Assembly: GCF_012027635.1 (NCBI RefSeq) | Contig: NZ_SNUS01000001.1 | Location: forward strand, 496,001-560,000 | Direction of reading: 5' to 3' | DNA from: Thermococcus sp. 21S9 | GTDB lineage: Archaea > Methanobacteriota_B > Thermococci > Thermococcales > Thermococcaceae | DNA: 64,000 bases | In this document: one piece after another, positions 3,166 through 52,072 of the stretch | Position numbering within the stretch: position 1 is the first letter of the stretch | How the letters are laid out: each line of letters opens with the position of its first letter | Position numbers and translations under genes: made by a program | The notes under the pieces: generated by a model | The model's input: the letters and a program-made list of their open reading frames with translations, nothing else | Database searches by the model: none | Told to the model about the DNA's origin: nothing

Positions 3166-3578
3166 GGCCAGAGCTGTTCTACATGGACACGAGCGCCATG
3201 ATAGCTCTCCTCGTCAGGGACGACCCGGAGCACGAGCGGGCCTTGAGCTTCTTTAGGGACGCCGTTAGGGAGGGGTCGGTTTTCGTAATCGGTAGGCCCA
3301 CGCTGATGGAGTTCCTGAACGGCGTTGCAAAGCACGTTGGAAAGGACGTTGCCGAGGAGCAGTACCGCCTCTACACCGCGAGCAGGTTCATCTTCATCGA
3401 GAAGGAAACCGAAGCGGACTGGGAACGGGCCTGGGAGCTTTTCTTCAAGTACCGCGACCAGCAGGGAATAGACTTATTCGACAGCTTAGCTTTCGCAATA
3501 ATGGAGAGGCTTGGAATCAGGAAGGCGTTCACCTTCGACAGCGACTTCGCGGTTCACGGCTTCGTCATGGCCCCATAG
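3150..3578 (+). CDS. vapC: VapC-type PIN-domain toxin
   Basis: A 142-residue PIN-domain ribonuclease, the toxin partner of the upstream antitoxin. The acidic residues of the PIN active site are visible: D13 in MDTSAM, E in LMEFLNG, D in IDLFDSLAF and D in FTFDSDF. The start ATG 3150 is preceded by GGGGAGTGG. RNA target unknown. It ends one base short of the convergent alaX stop. Confidence 0.82.
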   Translation: MAKPLRPELFYMDTSAMIALLVRDDPEHERALSFFRDAVREGSVFVIGRPTLMEFLNGVAKHVGKDVAEEQYRLYTASRFIFIEKETEADWERAWELFFKYRDQQGIDLFDSLAFAIMERLGIRKAFTFDSDFAVHGFVMAP

Positions 3579-3579
3579 A

Positions 3580-4038
3580 TTAAAGCACCTCAAAACTAAT
3601 CTCCAAAAGCTCCCTGCTCCTCCTGAAGCGGACCTTCCTGATTCTTATTTTCCCAATTTCGCCCGTCGTCTTCGTGTGCTCCTTATTGCACGCGTTGACG
3701 TTCCAGCCCTCGATGACGACCACCTTGAGGGTTCTAACTTCCTCGGGAACCGGAAACAGGTCGTACATGTCCTCTCCAAAGCGCTTCTCCGCTTCCTCAC
3801 GCGGAAGCTCGTAAACTTTAACCGGAACGTTCTCCTTAACTTTCTCGTTGGCGAGGCGTTCTATTTCAGCGATTTCCTCGGGCGTTGGCTTCCGGTCGAA
3901 CTTAACTGCCAGAACCCCGCGGTTGCCTTTAACGTAGGTCGAGGCCGTCCACTTGGCCTTTTCGCCGAGAACCTTCACAACCGCACCCTTGACCACGTGG
4001 AGTGCCGTGTGAGTTCTAACCTCAATATTCCCTTCCAT
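3580..4038 (-). CDS. alaX: Alanyl-tRNA editing protein AlaX (small form)
   Basis: A trans-acting hydrolase that removes serine (or glycine) mischarged onto tRNA-Ala. It is a stand-alone version of the AlaRS editing domain. The zinc ligands are in place: H10 and H14 (THTALH) and C117 and H121 (NACNKEHT). The start at 4038 gives 152 residues, close to the Pyrococcus short AlaX; a more upstream ATG at 4080 would add 14 residues unlike the family. Transcribed toward vapC. Confidence 0.88.
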
Positions 4039-12437: not shown

Positions 12438-13013
12438 ATGAACCTCCTAATAGTAGCCCCCTGCTTGTTGAGTCCCTTCTACGTCTACCGCGGGCCGAAG
12501 GAGAAGGAATACCTCACGGCAAGAGAGCTGAGAAAGCTGATTGGAGAGCTCGGCGAGGAATGGCAGGTTCTTGCCTACCCCTGCCCCGAGTTCGAGCTGA
12601 TTGGCTGGCCGAGGCCTCCGATGGGAAGGGAGAGCTTTGAGAGACTCGGCATGCGCGAGAGGGTTCAGGTCGTAGCGGACTTCATAGGAAGAATTCTGAC
12701 TGAAGAGAAGCCGGAGCGGGTAATTTTTATCGGCGTTAAAGGCTCCCCAACCTGCGGTGTCTTCCACACAACTTCGAACGACCCTGATTCCTTCGACTAC
12801 GGCTTGATTCCGGCGTTCTTCTACATGGACAAGGAGAAGAGGCTTGAGGAGAGCAGGAAAATCATCGAGCGCTTTTCCTTCGAGGTTAAGGAAGGGCCGG
12901 GACTGCTCTTCGAGGAGCTCATGGAGCGCTTCCCGGAGGCGGAGTTTTTAGAGTTCGACAAGGACGACGTTGAGGAGAGCGTTGAAAGGCTCAGAAAGGC
13001 CCTGAAGTCCTAA
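12438..13013 (+). CDS. DUF523/TudS-like cysteine protein
   Basis: A 191-residue protein with three spaced cysteines in contexts that resemble DUF523 proteins: an N-terminal APC followed by LLSPF, a YPCPEFELIGWPRPP segment, and a GVKGSPTCGV segment. In thiouracil desulfurase (TudS) of this family three such cysteines bind a [4Fe-4S] cluster. The likely role is sulfur chemistry on small molecules, but this is inference. The start at 12438 is supported by GGGTGAG; a TATA-like CTTTAAAG lies at about 12382. Confidence 0.6.
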   Translation: MNLLIVAPCLLSPFYVYRGPKEKEYLTARELRKLIGELGEEWQVLAYPCPEFELIGWPRPPMGRESFERLGMRERVQVVADFIGRILTEEKPERVIFIGVKGSPTCGVFHTTSNDPDSFDYGLIPAFFYMDKEKRLEESRKIIERFSFEVKEGPGLLFEELMERFPEAEFLEFDKDDVEESVERLRKALKS

Positions 13014-30196: not shown

Positions 30197-30274
30197 GGCC
30201 GGGGTGGTGTAGCCTGGTCAGCACAGGGGACTGTGGATCCCCTAGCCCGGGTTCAAATCCCGGCCCCGGCCCCA
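30197..30274 (+). tRNA. tRNA-His (GTG)
   Basis: Cloverleaf with acceptor GCCGGGG/CCCCGGC, anticodon GTG in loop CTGTGGA, T-loop TTCAAAT and encoded CCA (30272-30274). The G at 30197 is the encoded G-1 that pairs with discriminator C73, a known identity element of histidine tRNA. Confidence 0.97.
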
Positions 30275-30962
30275 TAACAGCCCTTTCTGACGAAAGCGCT
30301 GGCGGAAAATTGGGTGCTTTTTTGAAATTCAACAGGTTGCAAGGAGTTTCTTTTTGACTTGCTTTTTCAAGAGTGTTTCATTTCCCAAACGGCGTCCTTC
30401 GGACGCCAAAAATGAGTTGAAACTGTTTCACTGGGTCCCTTTAATGTTAAACTTGCGTTGAACTCTCCAATTCGAGAGTGCACGACTGGTTTTTTGCTCG
30501 TTGGTGAAAAGGGCACTCTTTGGTCAAACTTTGCGCAGGCGAACAAACTTTACTTAGCAAAGTTTGACCAAGGTTTGTAGCTCCTTTTTAGAGGCTACGT
30601 TTTGGGAGATTTTCTTATCTAATGGCTGTTTGGAGCATGAGAACTTTATCAACTTGCTCTTCTGTTGTTGGTTTAACTTTAAACCGACGCCCGGAGGGCG
30701 TCAGGGAAGGTAAACCCCTTTGAGAGGGTTGTTTTGGTTGGTTCTCTATTGTAAAGCTCGATTTTACAGGCAAAATCTGCTCTACTTGGGCCGTTGGGTA
30801 AAGAGCTACTAACTTTTGGTGAAGCTTTTTCCAAAAGCTTCAGCGCTGGCGGAGAAACTTTTCTTGTGAAAAGTTTCATCAAAATTAGGCATGCTTTCTG
30901 AGAGGGTTCGTCTCCGTAAAGGGGTTTGCTTCTAATTTTCGAGCTGACGGATAATGTTTCAC
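30275..30962. repeat. Hairpin-rich mosaic spacer A next to tRNA-His
   Basis: This 688-base stretch has no convincing gene. It holds many perfect short hairpins: GGCGTCC-TTC-GGACGCC (30391-30407), CAAACTTT-N7-AAAGTTTG (30544-30566), GACGCCC-GGA-GGGCGTC (30686-30702), AAGCTTTT-TCC-AAAAGCTT (30822-30840) and a 10-base stem at 30854-30877. The 12-mer AGCGCTGGCGGA occurs at 30295 and 30842. Three segments are shared with the spacer at 50822-51348 (see findings). It is more AT-rich than the flanks. Confidence 0.65.
30445..30498 (-). repeat. Repeat module M1, copy A
   Basis: Read on the minus strand, this 54-base block matches 50947-51000 (plus strand) at 44 of 54 positions with no gap, including an identical core CAGTCGTGCACTCTC. 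Five of eight differing codons are synonymous when read in the plus-strand frame starting at 30446. Probably a degraded relative of the open frame in copy B, because a TGA at 30413 interrupts it. Confidence 0.7.
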
Positions 30963-30966
30963 TCAT
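30679..30966 (-). CDS. Doubtful 95-residue open frame inside spacer A
   Basis: The ATG overlaps the DUF835 stop as ATGA, the pattern of a coupled gene, but the frame runs through several palindromes of the spacer and shares the segment KLLEKA-(S)-PKV with the opposite open frame at 51043-51080. Composition (many Ser, Lys, Pro) looks non-globular and no family is recognised. Either a lineage-specific peptide or a chance frame. Confidence 0.2.
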   Translation of the reverse strand: MSETLSVSSKIRSKPLYGDEPSQKACLILMKLFTRKVSPPALKLLEKASPKVSSSLPNGPSRADFACKIELYNREPTKTTLSKGFTFPDALRASV

Positions 30967-31796
30967 CCCTTGCTGAGCATCTTCTCAAGCTCTTCGATGG
31001 GTTTTAGCTCGGAGACCAGCATGTTGAACGTCTTCTCATCGAGGGCTTCCCTCTCTATTGAGACGAGCAGGATTCCCCTGTTGAGAGTCGCAAGGTCCCG
31101 CAGGCTGGCTATAAACTTCAAAACGCTCTCGGGCTTGTTCTCAAGGAGAAGGTACTCCACACAGTCAATGAGTATGACCTTATCCAGGTTCGTTGATTCG
31201 AGGAACGTCTTGAGGTTCTCAAGGAGGTAGGGAAGCCTCGTCGGGTCGACAGCCTCGTCGTGTTTGACCTTTGAGACCCATAGAACAGGGACTATTTTCA
31301 AGCCGAGCCTCGAGCGGAAGACCTCCGGAGGGTCACGGGTGACCGCTATTCCAGGGAGGTGCCTGTGCTTGGTCAGCTCTACGAAGAGTTGCTCCGCTTT
31401 CTCACTGCTTCCCCAGTAGGCCCCGTATGCTATCTCCTGGCTCGGCTCCGTTGCTATTGGCACGATGATGTACTGACCCCTTGCAAATGGCAGGTACAGC
31501 ATCACGGAGGAGAGGAACAGCAGGAGGGCCCCGATGGTCAGGAGAATCGACCTGACGATTACGTACGTCTCGTTGCCGTAGAGAACCGAAGTCCGAAGGA
31601 GCACCCCTATAAACTCGGCAACGACGACGAGAACGAAGGCACCGATGAGGAGGTTGAAGACACGGGTGAAGTACTTAACCCGAAGGTTCTGTTTGACGCT
31701 CTTCTCGACGGTGAGCAACATTATGACTATGGCAAGGGAGAGCAGTAAGACAGTGAGGTCCCTGAGGAAGTAACCCAGCGAGAGCACGTGAAGCAT
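30963..31796 (-). CDS. DUF835 protein with N-terminal membrane helices
   Basis: A 277-residue protein with three hydrophobic helices (about residues 5-30, 45-65 and 80-100), then a cytoplasmic DUF835 domain (residues about 125-270: WGSSEKAEQLF, then LPGIAVTRDPPEVFR, then VILIDCVEYLLLENKPESVLKFI). DUF835 is a RecA-like fold lacking a Walker A loop and is abundant in Thermococcales; function unknown, perhaps sensing. The start ATG 31796 is preferred; GTG 31814 is possible. TATA-like TTTAAAAA is at about 31838. Confidence 0.75.
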   Translation of the reverse strand: MLHVLSLGYFLRDLTVLLLSLAIVIMLLTVEKSVKQNLRVKYFTRVFNLLIGAFVLVVVAEFIGVLLRTSVLYGNETYVIVRSILLTIGALLLFLSSVMLYLPFARGQYIIVPIATEPSQEIAYGAYWGSSEKAEQLFVELTKHRHLPGIAVTRDPPEVFRSRLGLKIVPVLWVSKVKHDEAVDPTRLPYLLENLKTFLESTNLDKVILIDCVEYLLLENKPESVLKFIASLRDLATLNRGILLVSIEREALDEKTFNMLVSELKPIEELEKMLSKG

Positions 31797-31875
31797 GTAT
31801 GTACGTTGATGCACAGGTTTTTAACGGTTTCGTGGGATTTTTAAAGGGTTGGAGGATTTATCCATGGTGGTTCCG

Positions 31876-50834: not shown

Positions 50835-51092
50835 TTAAAAGTTTTTTTGCTCGGCCTCTGACAAGGTCGGCAAACAAGCTTTGAGAAAGCTTGGCCAACA
50901 GCCTTTAAGAAAGGCTGGCAAAAAGAGCGCCCTTTCTCCCCAGAGAAGCAAAAAGTCAGTCGTGCACTCTCTAATTGAAGAACTCAGTGCGAGTTTGACA
51001 CTAGCGTCCAAAAGGCGCCTCCTTAGAGCGAAACACTCATCAAGCAAGCTTTTGGAAAAAGCTTGACCAAAAGTTTGTGGTTCTTTTAACAA
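50835..51092 (-). CDS. Doubtful 85-residue open frame inside spacer B
   Basis: The frame opens at TTG 51092 and contains VKLALSSSIRECTTDFLLLWGERA. The same peptide pattern (VKLALNSPIRECTTGFLL) can be read from spacer A in a disrupted frame, and most differences between the two copies are synonymous. It is rich in Leu, Phe, Ala and Arg, with no ribosome binding site. Either a small, mobile, Thermococcales-specific gene or a relic of one. Confidence 0.25.
   Translation of the reverse strand: MLKEPQTFGQAFSKSLLDECFALRRRLLDASVKLALSSSIRECTTDFLLLWGERALFLPAFLKGCWPSFLKACLPTLSEAEQKNF
50947..51000 (+). repeat. Repeat module M1, copy B
   Basis: Plus-strand match to the minus strand of 30445-30498 at 44 of 54 positions without gaps. 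The shared core is CAGTCGTGCACTCTC; the match weakly extends upstream toward 50930 (AGAGYGCCCTTT). Confidence 0.7.
51046..51075 (+). repeat. Repeat module M2, copy B
   Basis: This 30-base segment matches the minus strand of 30811-30840 at 29 of 30 positions. It includes the hairpin AAGCTTTT-GGA-AAAAGCTT and the following ACCAAAAGTT. Confidence 0.7.
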
Positions 51093-51316
51093 GTGCTCTA
51101 TTATGAGTGTTTGCGCTTTTAATGGGCTCTTGTAGAATGCGAATTCCTCGATTTTGGAAGCTTTCTCACGCGGGTTACATTTTCCCGCGCTCCGGAGGAG
51201 TGCTTTTTAGAGAACCTCCCATTATGAGGGCCTTCTTAAAGGGAATTCTCTCAAGAAAATGGCCGTTTGAAAGCGCAAACTCCTTAGAATTGCATTCTTA
51301 GAGGAGAATCACGAAC

Positions 51317-51341
51317 CTTGGTCAAACTTCGCGCAGGCGAA
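51317..51341 (+). repeat. Repeat module M3, copy B
   Basis: This 25-base segment matches 30519-30543 on the same strand at 23 of 25 positions (GGTCAAACTTYGCGCAGGCG). It forms most of the hairpin next to tRNA-Gly. Confidence 0.65.
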
Positions 51342-51348
51342 GTTTGTG

Positions 51349-51426
51349 TGGTGCGGTGGCCGGGATTTGAACCCGGGTTACCGGCTTGGGAGGCCGGTGT
51401 CCTGGACCAGGCTAGACTACCACCGC
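51349..51426 (-). tRNA. tRNA-Gly (CCC)
   Basis: Cloverleaf with acceptor GCGGTGG/CCACCGC, anticodon CCC in loop CTCCCAA, T-loop TTCAAAT, discriminator A and encoded CCA (51349-51351). Its promoter TATA lies inside the end of the upstream methyltransferase gene. Confidence 0.97.
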
Positions 51427-51439
51427 ACGCCCGTTATTC

Positions 51440-52072
51440 TTAAGGGGAGGGAGCTTTAAAAGTTTTACTCTCAGCAGGCTTCCGCGCGACGATTAAACGG
51501 ACGATTCCGCGGTAATAGCGCTCCTCGCGCTCGATTTCAAAGTGCTTCGAGACCAGTTTATGCGTCTCCCTGAGAGGGTCGTCATCGAGGAGTAACCTCA
51601 ACGGCAACTTCAGGGGAAGGAGAAACAGGTAGTTGAGCAGAACCGAGTCGCTCTTCGTGTGCTCGAGGAAAACCGCCCTTCCACCTGGCTTTAAAACGCG
51701 GAGGATTTCCTTCATTCCCTTCTCCGGGCTCGGAACGGTGCAGAAGACGAAGGAGCTCAGAACGGTGTCAAAACTGTTGTCCGGGAAGGGAAGTTTCTCA
51801 ACGTCGGCAACCTCAAAACAGGCATTCAGGTTAAGCTTTCTGGCTTTCTCCCGGGCAATTTCAAGGGCCTCGGGAACGGCATCTATTCCACAGAGCTCAA
51901 CGTCTTTTGGATAATAGCGCAACGTTTTCCCGACGCCAACGCCGACCTCAAGGGTTCTCCCCGCCACAAAGGAAACCGCCCTCTTCCTTAGCGGACAGAA
52001 AAACCTGTCGAGGGGTTTCTCAAGGGTCTCGTAGTGTCTCGCTATGCGGGAATACTTCTCCCTGAACGACAT
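51440..52072 (-). CDS. Class I SAM-dependent methyltransferase
   Basis: A 210-residue methyltransferase-11-type protein: TLEVGVGVGKTLRYYP (SAM loop, near residue 40), CGIDAVPEALEIAREKA (acidic residue for ribose), VADVEKLPFPDNSFDTVLSSFVFC and EILRVLKPGGRAVFLEH. Substrate unknown; the C-terminal part is hydrophobic and could face a lipid or quinone. Its last codons overlap the tRNA-Gly promoter. Confidence 0.8.
   Translation of the reverse strand: MSFREKYSRIARHYETLEKPLDRFFCPLRKRAVSFVAGRTLEVGVGVGKTLRYYPKDVELCGIDAVPEALEIAREKARKLNLNACFEVADVEKLPFPDNSFDTVLSSFVFCTVPSPEKGMKEILRVLKPGGRAVFLEHTKSDSVLLNYLFLLPLKLPLRLLLDDDPLRETHKLVSKHFEIEREERYYRGIVRLIVARKPAESKTFKAPSP
51454..51463 (-). promoter_or_regulatory. 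tRNA-Gly TATA box inside a coding sequence
   Basis: On the minus strand ACTTTTAAAG reads as a TATA box 28-37 bases before the tRNA-Gly 5' end. It coincides with the codons for K-T-F-K near the C-terminus of the methyltransferase, upstream on the same strand. Confidence 0.5.

Follow-up and report, generated by a model that had tools for sequence, protein, structure and literature searches.

Arrays of a hairpin-rich non-coding repeat anchored at the 3' ends of tRNA genes in Thermococcus sp. 21S9 and related genomes

We analyzed a 64,000-nucleotide stretch of the Thermococcus sp. 21S9 genome (GCF_012027635.1, contig NZ_SNUS01000001.1, positions 496,001 to 560,000, hereafter the window), in which two spacers without clear genes each touch a tRNA 3' end. 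Using ARAGORN, tRNA-His(gtg) was located at 30198-30274 (+) and tRNA-Gly(ccc) at 51349-51426 (-). Spacer A fills 30275-30962 and is followed by a protein gene at 30963-31814 (-), while spacer B runs from 51348 leftward to about 50803. The first-pass annotation had reported that the two spacers share three segments, and this was confirmed: M1 (30445-30498 minus and 50947-51000 plus) is identical at 44/54 positions, M2 (30811-30840 minus and 51046-51075 plus) at 29/30, and M3 (30519-30543 and 51317-51341, both plus) at 23/25. Dinucleotide-shuffled spacers reached at most 22/30 and 31/54 in eight shuffles per window length, against 29 and 44 observed. The perfect stems it noted are also present, with 13 inverted pairs in spacer A and 9 in spacer B, and no Rfam family other than tRNA was found in the window. 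The annotation had further described M1 and M2 as inverted and rearranged. We found that the inverted placement mostly reflects that tRNA-Gly is on the minus strand. Read away from each tRNA, M1 is the body of the same module type, M2 is the closing hairpin of a module, and M3 is a near-palindromic hairpin that matches in either orientation, whereas the order differs because the two spacers hold different modules.

To resolve this organization, we delineated the modules with nhmmer profiles, naming the apparent types alpha to epsilon. Array A (+) is alpha-epsilon-delta'. It opens 3 nt after the CCA end of tRNA-His with a type 1 cap hairpin (CAGC-C-CTTTC tgac GAAAG-C-GCTG, 30278-30301), which begins module alpha (30278-30539, 186 bits; covariance model R1 match at 30358-30536). 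Alpha holds M1 and a central G+C-rich hairpin at 30391-30407 (GGCGTCC ttc GGACGCC). Module epsilon (30520-30855, 279 bits) holds M3 at its start, M2 at its end and a central hairpin at 30686-30702 (GACGCCC gga GGGCGTC), and is followed by a truncated distal module, delta' (30842-30965, 53-58 bits). Array B (-) is gamma-alpha'. Its type 3 cap hairpin (CAAACTTCGC ctgc GCGAAGTTTG, 51323-51346) lies 2 nt after the CCA end of tRNA-Gly, module gamma (51044-51348, 255 bits) has M3 at its start, M2 at its end and a central hairpin at 51187-51203, and the truncated distal module alpha' (50903-51051, 63 bits with model R1) holds M1.

To determine whether the two spacers belong to a larger family, we searched the 21S9 genome by blastn, which gave 46 matches for spacer A and 31 for spacer B, and found intergenic sequence shared between loci at 19 places. 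Iterated nhmmer profiles started from the five apparent types converged on one set of hits, and therefore the family is one superfamily of ~260-300 bp modules, found on both strands because each module is a pseudo-palindrome. In the 21S9 genome there are 44 modules (~10 kb) in about 20 arrays of 1-4 copies, and six genomes hold 23-57 modules each, 5.5-13.6 kb in total. A covariance model of the 181-position core found 49 matches in the 21S9 genome, at 18 loci that were all already known. The same model gave matches in 72 of 94 family genomes: 58/61 of the same genus and, in five other genera that we label g8 to g12, 2/3 of g8, 0/9 of g9 (probably Pyrococcus), 5/13 of g10, 7/7 of g11 (weak) and 0/1 of g12. 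Two near-complete genomes of the genus, G003 and G019, had no module match, although G003 still has three cap-hairpin motif matches. A motif scan of genome contigs mostly returned chance matches in unrelated bacteria, and only the Thermococcales loci were used. The copy number and distribution support the first-pass proposal of a family of repetitive elements that settle beside tRNA genes. Terminator hairpins alone cannot explain a conserved body of ~180 nt, which the core model recovers at up to 166 bits.

The anchoring is strict. All 12 exact matches of the first hairpin motif in the 21S9 genome lie 1-3 nt after a tRNA CCA end, and 17 of the 18 loci found by the covariance model begin at a tRNA 3' end. 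Nearly all arrays start 1-9 nt after the CCA end of a tRNA gene, across six genomes the first module usually starts 1-5 nt after it, and 103 of 109 arrays open with a ~10-bp hairpin. Three cap types occur: type 1 (CAGC-C-CTTTC..GAAAG-C-GCTG), type 2 (GAAACTTTGC..GCAAAGTTTC) and type 3 (CAAACTTCGC..GCGAAGTTTG). Interestingly, the few arrays without a tRNA whose anchor could be identified start at the 3' end of another small RNA: box C/D sR36 in three genomes (positions 12498, 1930 and 10491 of our loci L249, L389 and L264), H/ACA Pab160 in one (L384, 1942), and a conserved ~70-nt RNA-like sequence at four loci. The last of these includes the single exception in the 21S9 genome (1490.76 kb; L086 ~3563-3633, also L383, L376 and L400). 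This sequence is 88-99% identical across genomes, with an upstream TATA-like motif, a GATGA kink-turn-like motif and a G+C-rich stem. It has no Rfam match, and we infer that it is probably an H/ACA-like RNA. One three-module array (~727500-728439 of G008, another of the genomes compared; L269) has no recognizable small RNA at either edge. Apart from this array, the rule is a position immediately 3' of a stable small-RNA gene.

Other sequences were noticed at the same addresses. A second, G+C-rich repeat (GAAAGACAAGGGGGCTCCGCCCCCTTATCTCTCTGTACTCTCAAACCCCC) also sits directly behind tRNA genes, at the end of the Val-cac array of the 21S9 genome (~1114324-1114520), in the tRNA-Gln(ttg) and tRNA-Lys(ttt) 3' flanks of genome G005, and behind tRNA-Val(tac) of G008. 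A ~40-bp insert with two small hairpins (GACGTCGAGCTTTGCTCGACGCAAGGGACGAAAGTCCCGC) lies inside the loop of type 3 hairpins, in the Pro-cgg and Arg-gcg arrays of the 21S9 genome and the Val(cac) and Leu(tag) 3' flanks of G008, as a nested small element. We also noticed an intron-containing tRNA at 197525-197632 of the 21S9 genome, called Ser(aga) by ARAGORN with a 30-nt intron, that is probably another tRNA misread, possibly elongator Met.

The position of the arrays raises the possibility that they are functional 3' elements of small-RNA genes, such as terminators, 3'-end processing signals or insulators that stop read-through from strongly transcribed genes, kept by selection and homogenized by gene conversion. 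Consistent with this idea, nearly every array starts at a small-RNA 3' end, a run of T4 lies within 70 nt in 89/111 array-bearing tRNAs against 50/124 without an array, and the hairpins are conserved and covary. However, half or more of the tRNAs of each genome and all surveyed tRNAs of G044 (a g9 genome) lack the arrays, a given tRNA has one in some species and not in others, a terminator needs tens of bases rather than 300-1100, and there is no strand preference in folding or G-U pairing. We consider this explanation unlikely, although it is the strongest of the alternatives.

We next asked whether the structure is conserved. MAFFT alignment with RNAalifold on whole alpha modules gave little consensus structure, whereas in the trimmed core 6 of 12 consensus pairs show compensatory changes (for example G-C 22 / A-U 10 and C-G 24 / U-A 15), and the cap stems vary in step. 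Mean folding z-scores are -4.2 for the sense strand and -4.8 for the antisense strand, against -0.7 for control DNA. G-U and A-C pairs are equally rare, with 4 and 4 in the cap stems and 8 and 6 in the core, and the loops exist in reverse-complemented form (ctgc/gcag, caa/ttg). These observations point to hairpins selected at the DNA level rather than a strand-specific RNA, although in the absence of expression data this is not conclusive. The modules might instead be transcribed and act as structured RNAs co-expressed with tRNAs, like E. coli rtT RNA downstream of tyrT, and the strong folding, the covarying stems and the position behind tRNA promoters would agree with this. This reading is doubtful because the antisense strand folds as well as the sense strand, G-U and A-C pairs are equally rare, the orientation of modules within arrays is mixed, no Rfam family is matched, and the T. 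kodakarensis and T. onnurineus transcriptome passages that we consulted do not describe such RNAs.

To examine the turnover of the arrays, we compared the same tRNA genes between species. At a given tRNA the array is present, absent or of another cap type (for example, Arg(ccg): type 1, none, type 2, type 2). In G008 and in G011, whose length suggests T. kodakarensis, most proximal modules are closer to another copy in the same genome than to copies in other genomes (18/22 and 15/18). In G005, tRNA-Ile and tRNA-Gly(tcc) share 96% identity from +1 to +298, exactly one module, although the tRNA bodies differ. The proximal module outscores the distal one in 47 of 53 arrays, and proximal modules are more intact (279 versus 193 bp). 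This fits addition at the tRNA side and decay outward, where the copying itself is inferred. No transposase (RAYT-type genes were not looked for), no target-site duplication (at the right edges inspected and with diverged filled/empty pairs) and no recent insertion between otherwise identical strains was seen.

Integrative elements of the pT26-2 and pTN3/TKV types use the 3' end of tRNA genes as attB in Thermococcales (PMC6972569, PMC8371274), and the arrays could be their remnants. However, no repeat of the tRNA tail was found within 2.2 kb downstream in any of 269 tRNAs, and arrays also lie behind sR36 and Pab160. In addition, there was no similar DNA in the plasmid and phage collections searched with spacer A, in the plasmids searched also with a delta-type array, or in IMG/VR viral contigs searched with two cap motifs. 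We regard this origin as improbable.

We then examined whether the arrays coincide with chromosome breakpoints. The gene behind spacer A lies behind tRNA-His, -Trp, -Gly(tcc), -Gly(ccc) or a Gln/Trp pair in different species. A first comparison of filled and empty sites by tRNA identity was confounded by tRNA swaps, and a looser neighbor test was replaced because 2.5-kb flanks overlap other tRNAs, so we scored conservation of the immediate neighbors in six genomes. The 3' neighbor is the same gene in 68/475 comparisons with an array and 258/601 without (14% versus 43%), and it lies behind a different tRNA in 113/475 and 43/601. The 5' neighbor is far steadier, but it is also somewhat less conserved when an array is present (214/337 versus 464/597, 64% versus 78%), so a general synteny bias could contribute. 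These comparisons are not independent. Per tRNA species, array frequency correlates with loss of the 3' neighbor (rho -0.55, p 0.00025, n 39) but not significantly with loss of the 5' neighbor (rho -0.19, p 0.28, n 36). Arrays could accumulate at breakpoints rather than cause them, and some swaps of the gene behind spacer A involve species with no module there now. When we tested whether distal modules follow the downstream gene and proximal modules follow the tRNA, there was only a weak excess (9 hits against 4.0 expected; 32 against 19.1), so that array-to-array crossover is not shown at the sequence level. Sequence affinities hardly track either the tRNA or the downstream gene, so that the order of events cannot be read directly. 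The coincidence with 3'-side synteny breaks, and the mosaic modules with truncated distal pieces, could also mean that the arrays are passive debris, in which breaks at tRNA 3' ends caused by integrases are repaired with scraps of similar DNA. Defined module boundaries with capped hairpins at a fixed 1-5 nt offset, full-length proximal modules and covarying stems are not expected of random scraps, and this explanation also seems unlikely.

A published laboratory inversion in T. nautili provides a link to experiment. Cossu et al. (PMC5495485) mapped an inversion, which arose within tens of generations, to a 176-bp segment shared by two tRNA-Gly genes, and attributed the homology to the tRNA genes and the "strictly conserved sequences immediately following"; the repeat family is not described in the passages we consulted. 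In the genome that we identify as T. nautili from its published length of 1,976,356 bp, the two tRNA-Gly loci agree from tRNA nucleotide 38 to +135 except for one base at +45. If that base is the sequencing error corrected by Cossu et al., the segment is 41 bp of tRNA plus 135 bp of this repeat, namely a type 3 cap hairpin, the same cap type as in spacer B, and the first part of a module. Their primer upstream of BD01_1976 matches exactly 52 bp upstream of tRNA-Gly(ccc) in the 21S9 genome (window 51478-51500), which identifies the anchor of spacer B as the orthologue of this gene, and in T. nautili the gene behind spacer A follows the other tRNA-Gly. Thermococcus chromosomes are so shuffled that even close relatives are hard to align, and Cossu et al. 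could not explain why natural inversions end at pairs of unlike tRNA genes (Leu/Thr, Leu/Gly), because unlike tRNAs did not recombine in vitro. A repeat shared behind unlike tRNAs would offer a direct answer, although this remains a suggestion for those genomes.

Taken together, we favor, with moderate confidence, the view that spacers A and B are arrays of a non-coding repeat family of Thermococcaceae, structured at the DNA level, for which we found no description in the open-access literature searched, although this does not prove novelty. Each module is an imperfect palindrome with a covarying central hairpin and smaller hairpins at both ends. In this view, modules spread by copying, through an unidentified enzyme, into the small-RNA 3' end, a site where insertion is tolerated because the element brings its own T-run, and new modules push older ones outward. 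The resulting dispersed near-identical copies would act as crossover sites for homologous or integrase-assisted recombination, which swaps the genes behind tRNAs and shuffles the modules. The family shows that something in archaea recognizes, or is tolerated at, the 3' ends of small-RNA genes as a class. It is possible, but more tentative, that it represents a new class of archaeal mobile repeat that recognizes the 3' ends of stable small-RNA genes in general (tRNA, box C/D and H/ACA RNA), inserts hairpin-capped modules there, and thereby lays out the recombination sites that set the pace and pattern of chromosome rearrangement in Thermococcus.

The family can be compared with several known systems. 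Like the REP/BIME and REPIN elements of bacteria, which are associated with RAYT transposases (PMC2817692, PMC3116915), it is composed of non-coding palindromic repeats in intergenic space that are combined into mosaics, vertically persistent and lineage-homogenized. However, REPs are 20-40 bp palindromes, often with a conserved GTAG/CGTC tag, scattered between protein genes, whereas the modules here are ~260-300 bp and start at the 3' end of tRNA or sRNA genes. MITEs and palindrome-associated elements derived from IS families are likewise small, non-autonomous, foldback-capable and multi-copy, but here no terminal inverted repeat shared by copies together with a target-site duplication was found at the edges inspected, both ends of a module differ although terminal hairpins are present, and insertion is confined to small-RNA 3' ends. 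We therefore do not assign the family to either group. Integrative elements at tRNA attB sites (pT26-2, pTN3, TKV and SSV types) use the same chromosomal address, but they encode an integrase and duplicate part of the tRNA at the far end, a duplication that was not found here. The rtT RNA/tyrT tandem repeats of E. coli also lie directly downstream of a tRNA gene; in the arrays described here no tRNA pieces are repeated and dozens of small-RNA genes are involved. Finally, eukaryotic retrotransposons that target tRNA genes, such as Ty elements and Dictyostelium TRE, similarly use tRNA flanks as a safe haven (PMC5911963), while the elements described here encode nothing recognizable and begin within a few bases of the RNA 3' end.
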